Below, piece by piece: positions 19,194 to 64,000 of a stretch of 64,000 nucleotides of DNA. Under the pieces are notes generated by a model. The model ran no database searches. It had not been told where the DNA came from and saw nothing but the letters and a program-made list of their open reading frames with translations. Within the stretch, counting starts at the first letter, position 1; the number at the start of each line of letters is the position of its first letter. The translations under genes and the position numbers were made by a program. Origin of the DNA: Glaciecola nitratireducens FR1064 (lineage in GTDB: Bacteria > Pseudomonadota > Gammaproteobacteria > Enterobacterales > Alteromonadaceae); NCBI RefSeq assembly GCF_000226565.1, contig NC_016041.1:310001-374000 (forward strand), written 5' to 3'.

Positions 19194-19795
19194 GCTTTTA
19201 TTCCTTTGCTATCACGATGTGTTTTTATAAATTGAAGCGGTCTACCCAGCACTGTGCTTTTTTGCAGACCTCCCTGCCTATGCCAATACCTAAAGCAAAG
19301 CGCATACCAAATATAATTTCTATAAAAAACAATGTTTTAAATAATGTGTGAATTTGTAGTTTAGTCATTCTTGCGAATAATTAGTAAGTTCAACTAAATT
19401 TCACACATATCGCTATTCTGTCGCTGTTAGTAAAGCTAGCGTCAACTTACGTCGTTTGCCTAATACTGTTCGCTTAAGCCCCGTCGTTCTTGCGAAGGCA
19501 AGAATCTCCTTGATGCTACCTCTATCTTTTTAAAATAAAGGATGTTTTGGGAGATCTTTGCCTTCGCAAAGACGACGAGAAGGATACGTTGTTTAGGCGA
19601 ACAGTTTTAGTCGTTCGTCGCAATAAACGTAAATGCATAAATTTGAATTCGTGTTTGTTTAGCCTGTAATCTTTCAACAAGATAGTTTGCGGGTAGTGTA
19701 CAATCTGACGATATCGTTGTTTTAAAATCTGCGCTGAAATTTAACTTTGTTTAATTTCAATAACGCCAAAACCAAACTGAATAATTGAAAACTTA
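19194..19795. other. Gene-free region with a MITE-like repeat
   Basis: A 602-bp AT-rich gap between the divergent DUF1707 and yaeQ genes. Apart from the inverted-repeat element at 19460-19610, it contains only short ORFs with no recognisable product and the likely promoters of both flanking genes. A partial copy of the repeat word, TTCTTGCGAATAAT, occurs near 19370, about 90 bp before the element, and may be a fragment of another copy. Confidence 0.55.
19460..19610. repeat. MITE-like nested inverted repeat of about 150 bp
   Basis: The outer arms are CTAATACTGTTCGC (19460-19473) and its near-complement GGCGAACAGTTTTAG (19596-19610). The inner arms are 28-29 bp (19482-19509 and 19550-19578) and differ at only a few positions. 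Each inner arm is itself a short hairpin centred on TTGCGAAGGCAA. There is no ORF inside. The size, the terminal inverted repeats and the lack of coding capacity fit a miniature inverted-repeat element or a REP/BIME-type repeat. Confidence 0.75.
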
Positions 19796-33993: not shown

Positions 33994-34018
33994 TTAATTA
34001 ACACTGACCCCTTTATTT
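33994..34018. repeat. One-armed relic of the GGGGTCAG palindromic repeat
   Basis: This 25-bp stretch matches the right end of the large palindrome at 41191-41215 at 23 of 25 positions (shared block CTGACCCCTTTATTT). No opposite arm is found within 100 bp upstream. It sits 20 bp after the stop of the RND permease gene. Confidence 0.7.
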
Positions 34019-36877: not shown

Positions 36878-38956
<2,079 letters not shown>

Positions 38957-39128
38957 TTAACATAAATATAGAGCTCCTTTCAGAATATTAATGCTTTTTT
39001 TGAGTTCTTTCATATCGCAATAGCTGAACTGTGCAAATTTTACTCTAGACTTTATTAAGGCATCCGATATAAGTTAATGAGAAGTCAAACGACACAGTTC
39101 GAAGAACTAAGCACCAAAGGCCCAAAAT

Positions 39129-41051
39129 ATGACAATTCAACAGAAGTTTTTTTATGCAGTAGCGACGATTGTCGCCTTTTTTGCAGTTGCTTTAGCGGTT
39201 ATTAGTGGTTTTCAAAGCGCCTCACAAACGCAAAAAATGATTAGTTCAGACATTTTGAAACAACAAAAACACATTATTGATGTGTTAGATACCACTGACA
39301 CAATTATGGCTGAGAGAGTGCAAAACAGTATGCGCCTGCTTAAAAAAATGGGCGCTGAATTAGGGCCAGCTAAAATTGACGGTACTGTGTCCGTGAACGG
39401 TGTTTCGGCTAATAATATTTACTTAGGTTCTTCTGGGCAAGGAAACAACTTTACCCTCGTTGACGGCTTAACTGAAATAATGAATGGTACAGCGACTATT
39501 TTTAGCAAAACTGACCAAGATTATATTCGAATAGCAACTAACGTTATTAAAAACGATAAGAGAGCTATTGGAACTAAGCTAAGCCCTACAGGGAAGGCCA
39601 TTGTCAATATTAACAGCGGGAAACCTTACTTTGGTCAAGTTGATATCCTCGGAAACCCGTTTTTGACCGGCTACGCGCCGATGTTTGACAGCAATGGTGA
39701 AACTATCGGAATTTGGTATGTGGGTTATTCAGCTGATTTGCGCTCTATTCAAGATACGATTGCAAATAGTCGCTTATTGGATGAAGGCTTCATTGCCTTG
39801 CTCGATGCTAAAGGCAATATTCGCGCTAACTCGTCGAATTTATCTGAGAGTGAGGTAGAGAAAGCACTCGGCAACACTGATGATTGGCAGCTAACAAAAG
39901 TGAGTTATGATAAATGGGGCTACAGTATTGTATTGGCGGCAAGTAATGCTGAAGTTTCAAGTACAATATGGTCGAGCGTGATTGGCGCAGCTGTGAAACA
40001 GATAATCGCTGGCTTGGTTATTTTAGGGACAATTTTCTTCTTACTTAACAAGATTGTCGGGCAAAGAATTCAAAATTATATCGATACTATTAATGAAGTT
40101 GCGTCTGGTCGGGGTGATTTAAGCGTGCGGTTTGACGAACGTCATACTGATGAGTTTGGTCGCATGGCAAAAGGTTTAAATAGGTTATTTAGTAAAGTTG
40201 AAGATACTATTACAGACGTAAAATCTACCTCTAGCAAACTTATTGACAAAGCACTGGCGTTAAATGAGCTTGCTACCAACGCGCAAGCATCGGTCAAACA
40301 ACTCAGCGAAGAAGTGTCTTCTATGACTCGTTCAGCGAGTATTTTAGAAGAAAAAGCAACTGCTGTTGAACACAATACGGCAAAAGCTGATGAGGCGGCA
40401 ACAACCGCAGACAAAGAAACAAATTTAAGTGTAGAGACACTGAATAAGACAATCATTGACATCAAGGGGCAGGCCGACAATACGCAAAATTCGGTTTTAG
40501 TCATTGAAGAGTTAGCGCGCTCAAGTGAAGAAATCAGCGGCGTAATGGAAGTTATCAGAAATATTGCAGAACAAACGAATTTGCTTGCCTTAAACGCAGC
40601 TATTGAAGCTGCCAGAGCGGGCGAACAAGGAAGAGGATTTGCTGTTGTTGCTGATGAAGTTAGATCGTTAGCGAGCAGAACACAAAAATCAACTGAAGAA
40701 ATTAGAACGATGATTGAGAGGCTACAAGCCGGCAGTAAAGAAGCATCAACAGCAATGGCCACCAATAAAGCATCTGCGCTTGAAACAGTTGAATCCACAT
40801 CGAAAACGGGCGCTGTTTTACAGCAAGCATTAGCGGCAGTTGATCAAATTAAGTCCTTGAATAGTGAAACGGCAATAATGGCAAGCCAGCAGAAAGAAGT
40901 GTCGATGGATATCAAGTTAGGTATCGAAAATGTGAATCGAATCACCGAAGGAAATACGGCGAGCGCTACCAATATGAAGAAAATGAGTGATGAGTTATCC
41001 GCGTTAGTCAGCACTATGAAAGATAAATTGAACAACTACAAAACTACTTAA
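39129..41051 (+). CDS. Methyl-accepting chemotaxis protein with periplasmic Cache domain
   Basis: A 640-residue chemoreceptor. TM1 is about 7-29. A periplasmic region of about 240 residues has Cache-like text (TKTD-type [20 protein letters not shown], then [20 protein letters not shown] and [20 protein letters not shown]), matching the Cache_3/Cache_2 fusion seen in marine receptors. TM2 is near 285-305, followed by HAMP ([20 protein letters not shown]) and the signalling tip [40 protein letters not shown]. There is no C-terminal CheR pentapeptide. The likely ligand is a small organic acid, by analogy only. The large palindromic repeat begins 10 bp after the stop. Confidence 0.93.
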
Positions 41052-41060
41052 ACAAATAAA

Positions 41061-41213
41061 ATAAAGGGGTCAGGGTAAATTAAACCAAGAGGCCAGAGAA
41101 ACCAAGAAACCAAGGGGTCAGAGTACATGAAAAACATTACTGTTTTTCATGTACTCTGACCCCTTGGTTTCTTGGTTTAGGCCCCTTGGTTTAATTTACC
41201 CTGACCCCTTTAT
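41061..41213. repeat. Large GGGGTCAG palindrome (about 76-bp arms)
   Basis: A near-perfect inverted repeat centred on loop TTAC at 41137-41140. From the centre, ATGAAAAACA/TGTTTTTCAT, then GGGGTCAGAGTAC and its complement, then AAACCAAGAAACCAAG and its complement, then a slightly diverged AGGCCAGAG versus GGGCCT- block, and at the outer ends ATAAAGGGGTCAGGGTAAAT with its complement. Each arm contains two GGGGTCAG-type words and one GGCC(A/T) variant, so the arm looks like a stack of related units. It fills the gap between convergent mcp and yigB and could act as a bidirectional terminator. Confidence 0.95.
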
Positions 41214-41216
41214 TTG

Positions 41217-41933
41217 CTATATAAATGCTAAAAGTTCTTCAAGTTGATGAATTTCTACGTGAGGAAGCACTTTAACCGGTTCATTTTTTATTTTCATTGG
41301 TCGGTCGCAAGCGTGCCAAGCGCTTGAAAATCCTGCGTTAATAGCACCCCAAACGTCTTTTTCTAAGTTATCTCCGACATGCAAAATACTGCTTCGGTTA
41401 ACACTAAGGTAATTAGCGGCTTCATCGAACATGTGCGCATGTGGTTTCATTGGGCGCTGGCGACTGGCTTTTAAAACCTGCTGAAAATAGCCATCAAGCC
41501 CTATTTGCTGGGTGTTTACATTGCCATTGGTAATTGCAATCAATGGCATGTGTTGGGACAATTTTTCGAGTAATTGGCATTCAGCTTCACCCACTTTAAA
41601 ATTGCTACGCTCAAAGTAAAACCAGTCGAAACAAACTTTTACAGCGTCTGTTAACTTAGCGCCACTGTAACCAGATTCTTGAAGTCCTTTTGTTAAGATA
41701 ATACGTCGCAAATCACCCATGTCTGAAAACAGTTCCGGATCATCGCGCAGCGCTTGTCGTTTGTATTGTTGCCAATCCTCTTTAGCAAGGTGAGATGCAT
41801 TTGGATACTCCTCGGCAATAAAATTTAACAAACCTTTTTCTGCTTCAACAATCAATGGCCAGTTATCATATAGAGTATCGTCTAAATCGAAAGTCATCGC
41901 TTGAATTTTAGGAGTCGGTTTGTAAATAATCAC
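41217..41933 (-). CDS. yigB: HAD-family phosphatase YigB
   Basis: A 238-residue haloacid-dehalogenase phosphatase. Motif I FDLDDT has nucleophile D16 and D18. Motif II is the AITNGN stretch, and motif [23 protein letters not shown]. In E. coli, YigB dephosphorylates 5-amino-6-(5-phospho-D-ribitylamino)uracil (flavin synthesis) and other sugar phosphates. Its start overlaps the xerC stop by 4 bp (ATGA), as in the E. coli dapF-yigA-xerC-yigB operon. The call is therefore supported by both sequence and synteny. Confidence 0.93.
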
Positions 41934-42850
41934 TTCTTCTTCGCCCTCGGATGTGCTTTATCATAAATTTGAGAAAGGTGCTGAAAATTAAGGTGCGTAT
42001 AGACTTGTGTCGTTGATAGGTTAGCGTGCCCTAGCAACTCCTGAACACCTCGCAAATCGTTACTAGATTCTAATACGTGTGTGGCAAAAGAATGGCGCAA
42101 TGTATGCGGACTTATTTGTTGATACAAGGTTTGTTGCTTAGCCCAATAATCAAGTCTATTTTGAACTTGGCGATTCGAAATTCGGGTTTTGCGCTTGGAT
42201 AAAAAAAGCGCCTTTTCATCACTCGAGGGTAACAATTTATCCCGCTCGCTGAGCCATAAGCCCAGCGCTACCTTGGCTTGACGCCCAAGGGGTAAACGTC
42301 GCTCTTTGTTGCCTTTACCGATCACCCTAACTTCGTCACCGGCTAAAATATCGTTCAACTCAAGGCCCGTTAACTCTGATAAACGCATGCCGCAGCCATA
42401 AAGCAATTCAAACATCGCTTTATCTCTGATTCCTAAAAACTCGGTCGTATCAAAATTCAGTAAACTGCCCATTTCATCCACGTTGAGCTGTTTGGGTAAT
42501 GGCTTTGATTGCTTCAAGGACTGGATGGAGGCAACAGGGTTATTGCTTAAGTATTCTCGCGTTACCATGAACTCACAGAAATTACGCAATACTGTGAGCC
42601 GCAAATTGATGGTGCGTGTTGATAACTTTTCTTTACTGCAGTGCATGAGCATCATCTTGATGTGATCAGCAGTAAGTTCGGCCCAATTGTCGATATTAAG
42701 GTGGTTTAAGGCACTGAGAATTTGACGTTGATAGTTTTTACAGGTGTGTTCAGAAAGCTGACGTTCTACGCGAATATGATGGATAAAATCAATCACCCAA
42801 GAGCTCAATTGAGGAGGGATTTGTTCTTCAATAGCCAAGGAAGCATTCAA
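41930..42850 (-). CDS. xerC: Tyrosine recombinase XerC
   Basis: A 306-residue site-specific recombinase that resolves chromosome dimers at dif with XerD. It has an N-terminal SAM-like core-binding domain ([20 protein letters not shown]). The catalytic residues are all present: R156 ([10 protein letters not shown]), K179 ([10 protein letters not shown]), H249 and R252 ([12 protein letters not shown]), H275 ([10 protein letters not shown]), and nucleophile Y284 (TQVYTHL). Sequence and position between DUF484 and yigB both identify XerC rather than XerD. It lies 72 bp downstream of the DUF484 gene. Confidence 0.97.
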
Positions 42851-42922
42851 AATTGGCTGTTAACAATGCGCGTTTTATAAAAAGGTGTTTTGCATGCAAG
42901 TATTTCACTCACAAACGTTTTA

Positions 42923-43618
42923 TTAATAATGAAGTAAGTCAGGCATTGAGACATTGAGGAACTCCTGAAGCTGTCGTATTAACAACGTGTCCATGTCTGG
43001 GGTAAAGTGTATTGGATCTGCACTACCAATAGCTAATATGCCTAGGTCGCGTTTATCGCCAAGTAACACAAGAGCAACTGATTCGGCAATGGCATCTCCG
43101 AACAAGAGTTGTTTTTCATGCTGGCTTAGGCGTCCAAAAAAGAAGTCGCTGTCTTTGAAGCGTTTTTCCATAAACAAACGCTGCTGAATTTCGGGTAAAG
43201 CAAAAAGCCCTTTAAACGGTTTGATTGCCGCGGCTGACATATCGAGCTCATCCTGCAGCGTTTCTTCAATGGTGTATTGCATTTCTGCGAATTCAGTACA
43301 ACGCAGTAGACGAAGATTTAAGTCGGCATATACGCGATAAATTTCTTCGTTCTGTTTAGCAATAGAGATGAGTTGGCTGAGTTTAAAGCTGAGTTGACGA
43401 ACTTTTTTACGAAGCTGACTGCTCTGTAATTCTACAAGAGAAACGGTGCCTTTTTGCTTATGTGGCACCTGTACTTTTTCAGCGACGTCTGGATTTTTAA
43501 CAAAAAAATCTTTGTTATTAAGAATATACTCGCGTACTTCTGCTTCCGTGATTGCTTCTGAGGGAAAGTCTGGCGCTAGCGCTTGCGCAGTATTTCCTTT
43601 AACACCTGATTTATTCAT
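42923..43618 (-). CDS. DUF484 family protein (YigA-like)
   Basis: A 231-residue cytoplasmic protein. After a variable head, [20 protein letters not shown] and [20 protein letters not shown], then a coiled-coil-like stretch ([20 protein letters not shown]), are typical of DUF484. The C-terminal half has a GAF-like fold ([20 protein letters not shown]). The gene sits between dapF and xerC in many gammaproteobacteria, as here, and overlaps dapF by 4 bp. Its biochemical function is unknown. Confidence 0.92.
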
Positions 43619-44445
43619 AGCGTTATTTGTCCGTCATAAATGTGTTCTGCGGGGCCCGTCATTTTTAATAGACTGTCTTCCCCTTGCCATTTTATAATTA
43701 GTTTACCACCAGGAAGCGTGACATTCACTTCTTTATCTAGCTTGTCTTGCATAATACCGATCGCAACCGCTGCGCAAGCCCCGCTGCCGCAGGCGAGAGT
43801 CTCTCCGCTGCCGCGTTCAAAAACCCGAAGCTTTATCTCGCTACGACTTATTATTTGCATGAAACCAACATTTACGCCTTCTGGGAAGCGTTCATTATTG
43901 CCAATTATTTTGCCAATACCCACAACATCGTGAGTGTCTACGTCATCAACTTCGAGGACGCAATGAGGGTTACCCATCGACACTACACCACAGAAAAAAG
44001 TGTGTTCATTATCACGGATAATGTAGAAGTTTTCTTGTTTATTTGCTTTGAATGGAATGCGCTCTGGCGCAAATACGGGACGCCCCATATTCACCGTTAC
44101 GCTGCCGTCTTTTTCGAGATACAGCACCATGCGACCGGCTTTTGTGCTAACAATTATCTTGTTGCGGTTTATCAAGCCTTTTTGTTTAACAAATTTAGCA
44201 AAGCAGCGAGCCCCATTGCCACATTGAGAAACTTCGCTGCCGTCAGCATTGTAAATTCGGTAATGAAAATCTTGGTCTGGGTCGTAAGGCGGTTCTACAA
44301 TCAGCATCTGATCGAAGCCGATGCCAAAATGGCGGTCGGCAAGCTGCTGGATCTTCTCTTTGGAGAAAAACACATTTTGGGTAACGTTATCAATAACGAC
44401 AAAGTCGTTGCCGAGCCCGTGCATTTTAGAAAAATTTAACAGCAT
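43615..44445 (-). CDS. dapF: Diaminopimelate epimerase
   Basis: A 276-residue cofactor-free epimerase that converts LL-DAP to meso-DAP for lysine and peptidoglycan. The N-terminus [20 protein letters not shown] is diagnostic. The two catalytic cysteines are C75 ([13 protein letters not shown]) and C219 ([16 protein letters not shown]). The length is the same as in E. coli (274). It is 46 bp downstream of lysA and translationally coupled to DUF484. Confidence 0.98.
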
Positions 44446-63734: not shown

Positions 63735-63758
63735 AGTATCTAGAGTGCAGAAACAAAT

Positions 63759-63801
63759 CAAGGGGCCAGAGCTCTTGAAATTCAAGAACTCTGGCCCCTT
63801 G
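63759..63801. repeat. Short GGGGCCAG palindrome downstream of ssb
   Basis: 21-bp arms (63759-63779 and 63781-63801) that differ at one position, around a single central A. The outer half is CAAGGGGCCAGAG and its complement, the same core as CAAGGGGTCAGAG in the large palindrome at 41061-41213; the inner part CTCTTGAA is different. Confidence 0.92.
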
Positions 63802-64000
63802 AAGTTCTTGAGTTTGCAGCAGCAGGGTGGAGGTGCTTGATGTTTTAAATCAGCTTAAAGCTGATGCTTTTACTCATAGTTGCGTCATTTGCGACTTGTC
63901 TACTGTGGATTGAATATGTCGAATTAGGGCTTGGCATATGCAGGCTTTTACCGCAGTTAACTAACTTAAAGACGCCATTCTTTATTGTATTTTGCGTTTT
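63802..64000. other. Gene-free window end
   Basis: No gene is seen in the last 199 bp. A near-perfect 17-base palindrome ATCAGCTT-A-AAGCTGAT lies at 63849-63865. The rest holds no recognised feature and may be the leader of a gene outside the window. Confidence 0.4.

Follow-up and report, generated by a model that had tools for sequence, protein, structure and literature searches.

In Glaciecola nitratireducens, two convergent genes are separated by a giant layered hairpin of 157 bases that fills the space from one stop codon to the other. This palindrome consists of an A-type hairpin (AAATAAAGGGGTCAGGGTAAATTAAA) whose loop holds a B-type hairpin (AAACCAAGGGGTCAGAGTACATGAAA), and both arms carry truncated B-type feet. 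It is probably a compound member of a dispersed family of TIRYT (‘TIRtron’) hairpins. The family itself is, on balance, of the TIRtron kind, composed of inverted repeats that bound subclass 2.1 HUH/Y1 tyrosine-transposase genes and also lie scattered as non-autonomous hairpins. The class is already known; the layered form and the series of in-place states are new. It is unsettled how REP-like palindromes originate and whether they are moved by subclass 2.1 Y1 proteins. In the family and order to which this marine gammaproteobacterium belongs, hairpins bearing GGGGTCAG are tied to genes of the subclass 2.1 type. The simple and layered states at orthologous sites make the growth of long bacterial palindromes directly testable.

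Within the window, the whole stretch of 64,000 nucleotides that was analyzed, the palindrome covers positions 41059-41215. The original prediction of a giant nested palindrome is borne out, with these limits replacing 41061-41213. The left arm (41059-41136, 78 nt) and the right arm (41141-41215, 75 nt) are separated by the loop TTAC (41137-41140). Around this loop, the inner stem pairs 41099-41136 with 41141-41178 (38 bp, 100% complementary), and the outer stem pairs 41059-41094 with 41180-41215 (36 bp, 97% complementary). The sole diverged block of the arms is GGCCAGAG on the left versus GGCCT on the right. The two stems are the longest inverted repeats of the window, the runner-up being 28 nt at 86%, and the calculated DNA fold of the palindrome is −82.1 kcal/mol compared to −18.1 ± 3.0 for 200 shuffles (z = −21). 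Positions 38000-44000 have no match in Rfam. Elsewhere in the window, an inverted repeat at 19482-19577 (28 nt, 86%, spacer of 40 nt) is unrelated to the hairpin family.

The units named in the original prediction are all present, and they are better parsed as an A-type outer unit, a truncated B-type unit, a AAACCAAG foot, and a full B-type arm. The features of the locus, together with two further family members in the window, are as follows.

33994..34018, minus strand: solitary A-type arm of the same family
39129..41051, plus strand: methyl-accepting chemotaxis protein gene (Cache_3-Cache_2, HAMP, MCPsignal), which stops 7 nt before the palindrome
41059..41084, plus strand: outer A-type arm, left, AAATAAAGGGGTCAGGGTAAATTAAA; A-type hairpins also lie at genome positions 2741966 and 48842
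41082..41098, plus strand: truncated B-type unit, left, AAACCAAGAGGCCAGAG, its AAA common with the A arm
41099..41106, plus strand: extra B-type foot, left, AAACCAAG
41107..41136, plus strand: complete B-type arm, left, AAACCAAGGGGTCAGAGTACATGAAAAACA; a simple B-type hairpin lies at genome positions 3826431-3826480
41137..41140, no strand: loop TTAC
41141..41170, minus strand: complete B-type arm, right
41171..41178, minus strand: extra B-type foot, right, CTTGGTTT
41179..41192, minus strand: truncated B-type unit, right, AGGCCCCTTGGTTT, with a breakpoint unlike that of the left one
41190..41215, minus strand: outer A-type arm, right, TTTAATTTACCCTGACCCCTTTATTT
41217..41933, minus strand: HAD-family hydrolase gene, convergent, its end 1 nt beyond the palindrome
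63758..63802, no strand: second, simple family member, a TCAAGGGGCCAGAGCTCTTGAA hairpin

From outside to inside, the left arm reads AAATAAAGGGGTCAGGGTAAATT-AAACCAAGAGGCCAGAG-AAACCAAG-AAACCAAGGGGTCAGAGTACATGAAAAACA, and the right arm, reverse-complemented, reads AAATAAAGGGGTCAGGGTAAATT-AAACCAAGGGGCCT-AAACCAAG-AAACCAAGGGGTCAGAGTACATGAAAAACA. Given this order, complete A arms enclose a B-type hairpin with a repeated foot.

The palindrome belongs to a family that is dispersed over the 4,134,229-base genome. The exact unit GGGGTCAGRGTA is found at the focal locus only, whereas the looser arm AAGGGGNCAGNNTNNNTNAA, with one mismatch allowed, has 62 genome matches versus 2 for a reversed control pattern. 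The exact search is misleading as a family test and, applied strictly, would wrongly reject the family, since its members have diverged. The prediction of many copies in the genome thus survives for the arms and fails for the exact unit. A blastn search with the whole palindrome also recovers related hairpins elsewhere in the genome. Three arm types are distinguished: A, with AAATAAAGGGGTCAGGGTGAATTAAA and its relatives; B, with AAACCAAGGGGCCAGAGTACATGAAA; and C, with AAATCAAGGGGTCAGGTTACTTGAAA and AAACCAAGGGGCCAGGTACCTTGAAT. Twenty-eight of the 32 clusters, in a catalogue built from pattern and blastn searches that may miss diverged copies, lie between predicted genes (8 of those convergent), three are inside long ORFs, and one is unassignable. 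Across the 12 remaining genomes of the genus, AAGGGGNCAGNNTNNNTNAA arm matches number 1-14 versus 0-5 for controls, and by these counts the hairpin family is one expanded in the host lineage. Two members have unusual arrangements. A family palindrome in L071 (1501-1547, genome 4015701-4015747) is oppositely arranged, with GGGG towards the tip, and lies in frame within an ORF of 455 codons, looking like an insertion into coding sequence. At L138 (genome 2745390-2745512), four family arms of the same orientation form a short tandem array with no hairpins.

A single Y1_Tnp gene is present in the genome, and its product of 254 aa carries NHVH and YIEMNP motifs. This gene has imperfectly matched C-type arms on both sides, and 5 of the 62 arms are within about 1 kb of it. 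The flanks are neither of the focal A type nor of the B type, and no A- or B-type ends occur at the one Y1 gene of the host genome. The expectation of a Y1/RAYT transposase gene therefore held in that a Y1 gene sits among family copies, here and likewise in relatives, but not for the focal arm types. A Pfam scan of the protein returns Y1_Tnp only (E 0.001), a scan that a diverged, short form of the C-terminal helix-turn-helix domain of TIRYT proteins (Bac_DnaA_C / HTH) could escape, and the protein has weak similarity to E. coli TnpAREP, whose structure is solved (4er8). Among relatives, flanking inverted repeats clearly above shuffled flanks, mostly containing GGGGTCAG, accompany 28 of 42 long Y1 loci, which were drawn from a ranked list and are not a random sample. 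The proteins encoded there have NHVH and YIELNP motifs. Examples of the flanking repeats are ATCAAGGGGTCAGAGTTGTTGAAA (L207) and TCAATGGGGTCAGAGTCGTTGATT (L199), and the Y1 gene of L126, with A-like flanks GGGGTCAGGGTTAAATTAAA, is adjoined by ATAAAAGGGGTCAGGGTTAAATTAAAT, a sequence resembling the focal A arm. For control IS200-type genes, limited to five loci, the motif is on either side in one. At L216 (G006), a long Y1 gene lies between a different inverted repeat beginning AATGGAGTCGTAGTACATTTTCC, apparently a diverged TIR type.

The known class most like the family was described by Di Nocera et al. (2013), who named tyrosine transposase genes flanked by GGGGWSAS terminal inverted repeats TIRYT and found the TIR families to be moderately abundant in some genomes, singly, as dimers, or in clusters (PMC3733652). 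Quentin et al. (2018) placed most TIRYT genes in TnpAY1 subclass 2.1, which are TIR-flanked with no REP-like sequences, and called for further analysis (PMC6006769). The reference proteins of this subclass have NHVH, a YIELNP-like Y motif, and a length of about 238 aa, with which the host protein agrees. GGGGTCAG is present in both the A and the B arms of the focal palindrome, fitting GGGGWSAS, and the repeats likewise bound Y1 genes in inverted orientation and occur as moderately abundant dispersed copies. Departures from the class are also evident. Many genome copies read GGGGCCAG, which is off consensus at W; the nested stems are layered and reach up to 76 bp in the host genome; and arm types unlike in sequence coexist, the focal types having no cognate Y1 gene in the genome.

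Layering is a recurrent property of the hairpins. Among 51 hairpins, some of which are orthologous and not independent, 31 of the 102 sides bear additional feet beyond the main arm, versus 2.9 expected and a maximum of 9 in 300 shuffles. The anticipated recurrence of nested forms is accordingly confirmed. L160 is a second nest in which a B-type core is enclosed by an A-type foot, a partial parallel to the focal palindrome. On one arm of L001, L008, L028, and L160, the outer truncated foot reads AAGAGG, not AAGGGG.

Relatives preserve different states of the same hairpins. Five loci with common flanks (L151, L161, L158, L156, and L152) represent one orthologous Alteromonas-group site. The hairpin is simple in L151 and L161, L158 has an extra GACCCCTTGATT of about 12 nt on one arm only, L156 has GACCCCTTGATT on one arm and an unequal AAATCAAG foot on the other, and L152 has one equal foot per arm. 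At a second orthologous site, L157 is simple and L159 has a partial tandem copy. Since simple, one-sided, and two-sided hairpins share a single orthologous site, gain or loss of layers appears to happen in situ and on each arm separately. A gapped full-hairpin pattern, too strict for diverged copies, finds members in 7 genomes among 395 relatives. A single-arm scan of GTDB genomes finds 13 Alteromonadaceae/Gammaproteobacteria loci, the five with common flanks among them, the named ones being in Alteromonas alba and A. oceani; no Y1 gene is detected at these 13 loci by the motif used, and a full B-type hairpin scan of genome contigs gives no match. For the focal site itself, neither an empty nor a simple allele turned up. 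Gene order at that place differs in the nearest relatives, where the HAD gene adjoins an FMN oxidoreductase gene and the chemoreceptor gene is missing, which makes the orthologous site in the genus uninformative. The chemoreceptor gene (39129-41051) is absent at this place in the close relatives G008 and G009, and orthologues 62-68% identical are in other surroundings in G004 and G005.

What kind of sequence the palindrome represents has been weighed against two other readings. The original prediction implied a REP-associated element, a canonical REP/BIME served by a GTAG-recognizing RAYT. Like REPs, BIMEs, and REPINs with RAYT (TnpAREP) genes, the family consists of short extragenic palindromes, often at gene 3′ ends, with mobilization putatively by a domesticated Y1 protein; a Y1 gene is present, and its product matches the NCBIfam model REP_Tyr_transpos weakly (78.4 bits, below the cut-off of 80). 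However, GTAG marks the foot of a REP, whose copies usually number in the hundreds, whereas the family here numbers about 30 loci, and no GTAG was found at the hairpin feet, which read AAATAAAG or AAACCAAG. Lacking GTAG, the family falls outside the canonical REPs. The protein motifs also fit subclass 2.1, reported as TIR-flanked and free of REPs (PMC6006769), so the REP-associated reading is highly improbable and gives way to the TIRYT class. A literature text search for GGGGTCAG returned unrelated papers only, and nothing relevant was found on published nested REP-type hairpins. The other reading is that of an ordinary, long intrinsic bidirectional terminator, with family likeness owing to convergence on an A-tract, a GC stem, and a T-tract. 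Its appeal is that a GC-rich stem with an interrupted T-rich tail sits between convergent stops, that scanning the focal region gives terminator-like matches for both strands (6 versus 0.3 in shuffles), and that at two orthologous 3′ ends the hairpins of several relatives resemble terminators. Convergence is nevertheless quite unlikely, given that dozens of sites, some of them solitary arms without hairpins, show arm similarity over 20-26 nt, that copy number is lineage-specific, that arms flank Y1 genes, and that a terminator needs no 76-bp layered stem. The TIRYT assignment and a terminator role are compatible, and the latter is a plausible present function.

The layers themselves could be built in more than one way. 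In the original prediction, they reflect repeated insertion at the hairpin tip or foot, which fits the B-in-A step, while the layered feet point to in-place remodeling. Taken to its full extent, each layer would be a separate Y1 transposition of a complete hairpin into an older one, preferentially after GGGGTC or GGGGTCAG, with the old tip later lost between direct repeats. Heterotypic nests do exist (the focal palindrome and L160), and at L150, L156, L158, L053, and L133, outer units read by hand often end just past GGGGNC and inner units start at a foot AAAnnAAG. Transposition of every layer is still rather doubtful: no layered site shows the older hairpin's displaced half, foot lengths are unequal between arms, and the one-sided foot of L158 is simplest as a short tandem duplication. 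A more elaborate version, in which the Y1 enzyme targets hairpins themselves, cuts after GGGGTC, and adds a new hairpin on the old stump as a self-targeting, stacking mobile hairpin, is unlikely. Slippage or template switching is the simplest nameable process for the layers. New stems can arise, and existing ones become perfect, through template switching (PMC8794818, PMC7202029). Quasipalindrome correction of this kind lengthens and perfects hairpin arms in place; unlike the family here, it is a general mutational process and not an element, and its action here is putative. The two arms of one hairpin differ by 0.5 mismatches per 16, compared to 4.8 for arms from different loci, a contrast that is partly a selection effect of the hairpin-finding method, and this agrees with template switching and also with hairpins laid down whole. 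The B-in-A step brings unlike arm types together; insertion of a B-type hairpin into the A loop would be its easier explanation, as judged from one locus and the partial parallel of L160.

Remodeling in place with a single B-in-A insertion would give the following history. An A-type hairpin would have stood between the convergent genes, and a B-type hairpin would then have entered its loop, possibly through Y1-mediated single-strand transposition by an enzyme no longer in the genome. Next, either replication slippage or a template switch at the hairpin may have duplicated the B-hairpin foot where it stood, on both arms but with different breakpoints, GGCCAGAG| on the left and GGCC| on the right. 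Arm-to-arm template switching or selection could have kept the stems matched. At present, the palindrome probably serves as a bidirectional transcription terminator or 3′-end hairpin. The convergent stops, the scan matches, and the 3′-end hairpins of relatives suggest that it would end transcription both ways, though dispersed similarity, solitary arms, and transposase linkage set it apart from an intrinsic terminator. The T-runs beside the focal stem are interrupted (TTTATTT and TTGGTTT). At the 3′ ends of hflC and mlaA-like genes, names assigned by sequence inspection only, several relatives of the same genus carry hairpins with a stem and T-run in the positions occupied by A-type hairpins in the host genome.
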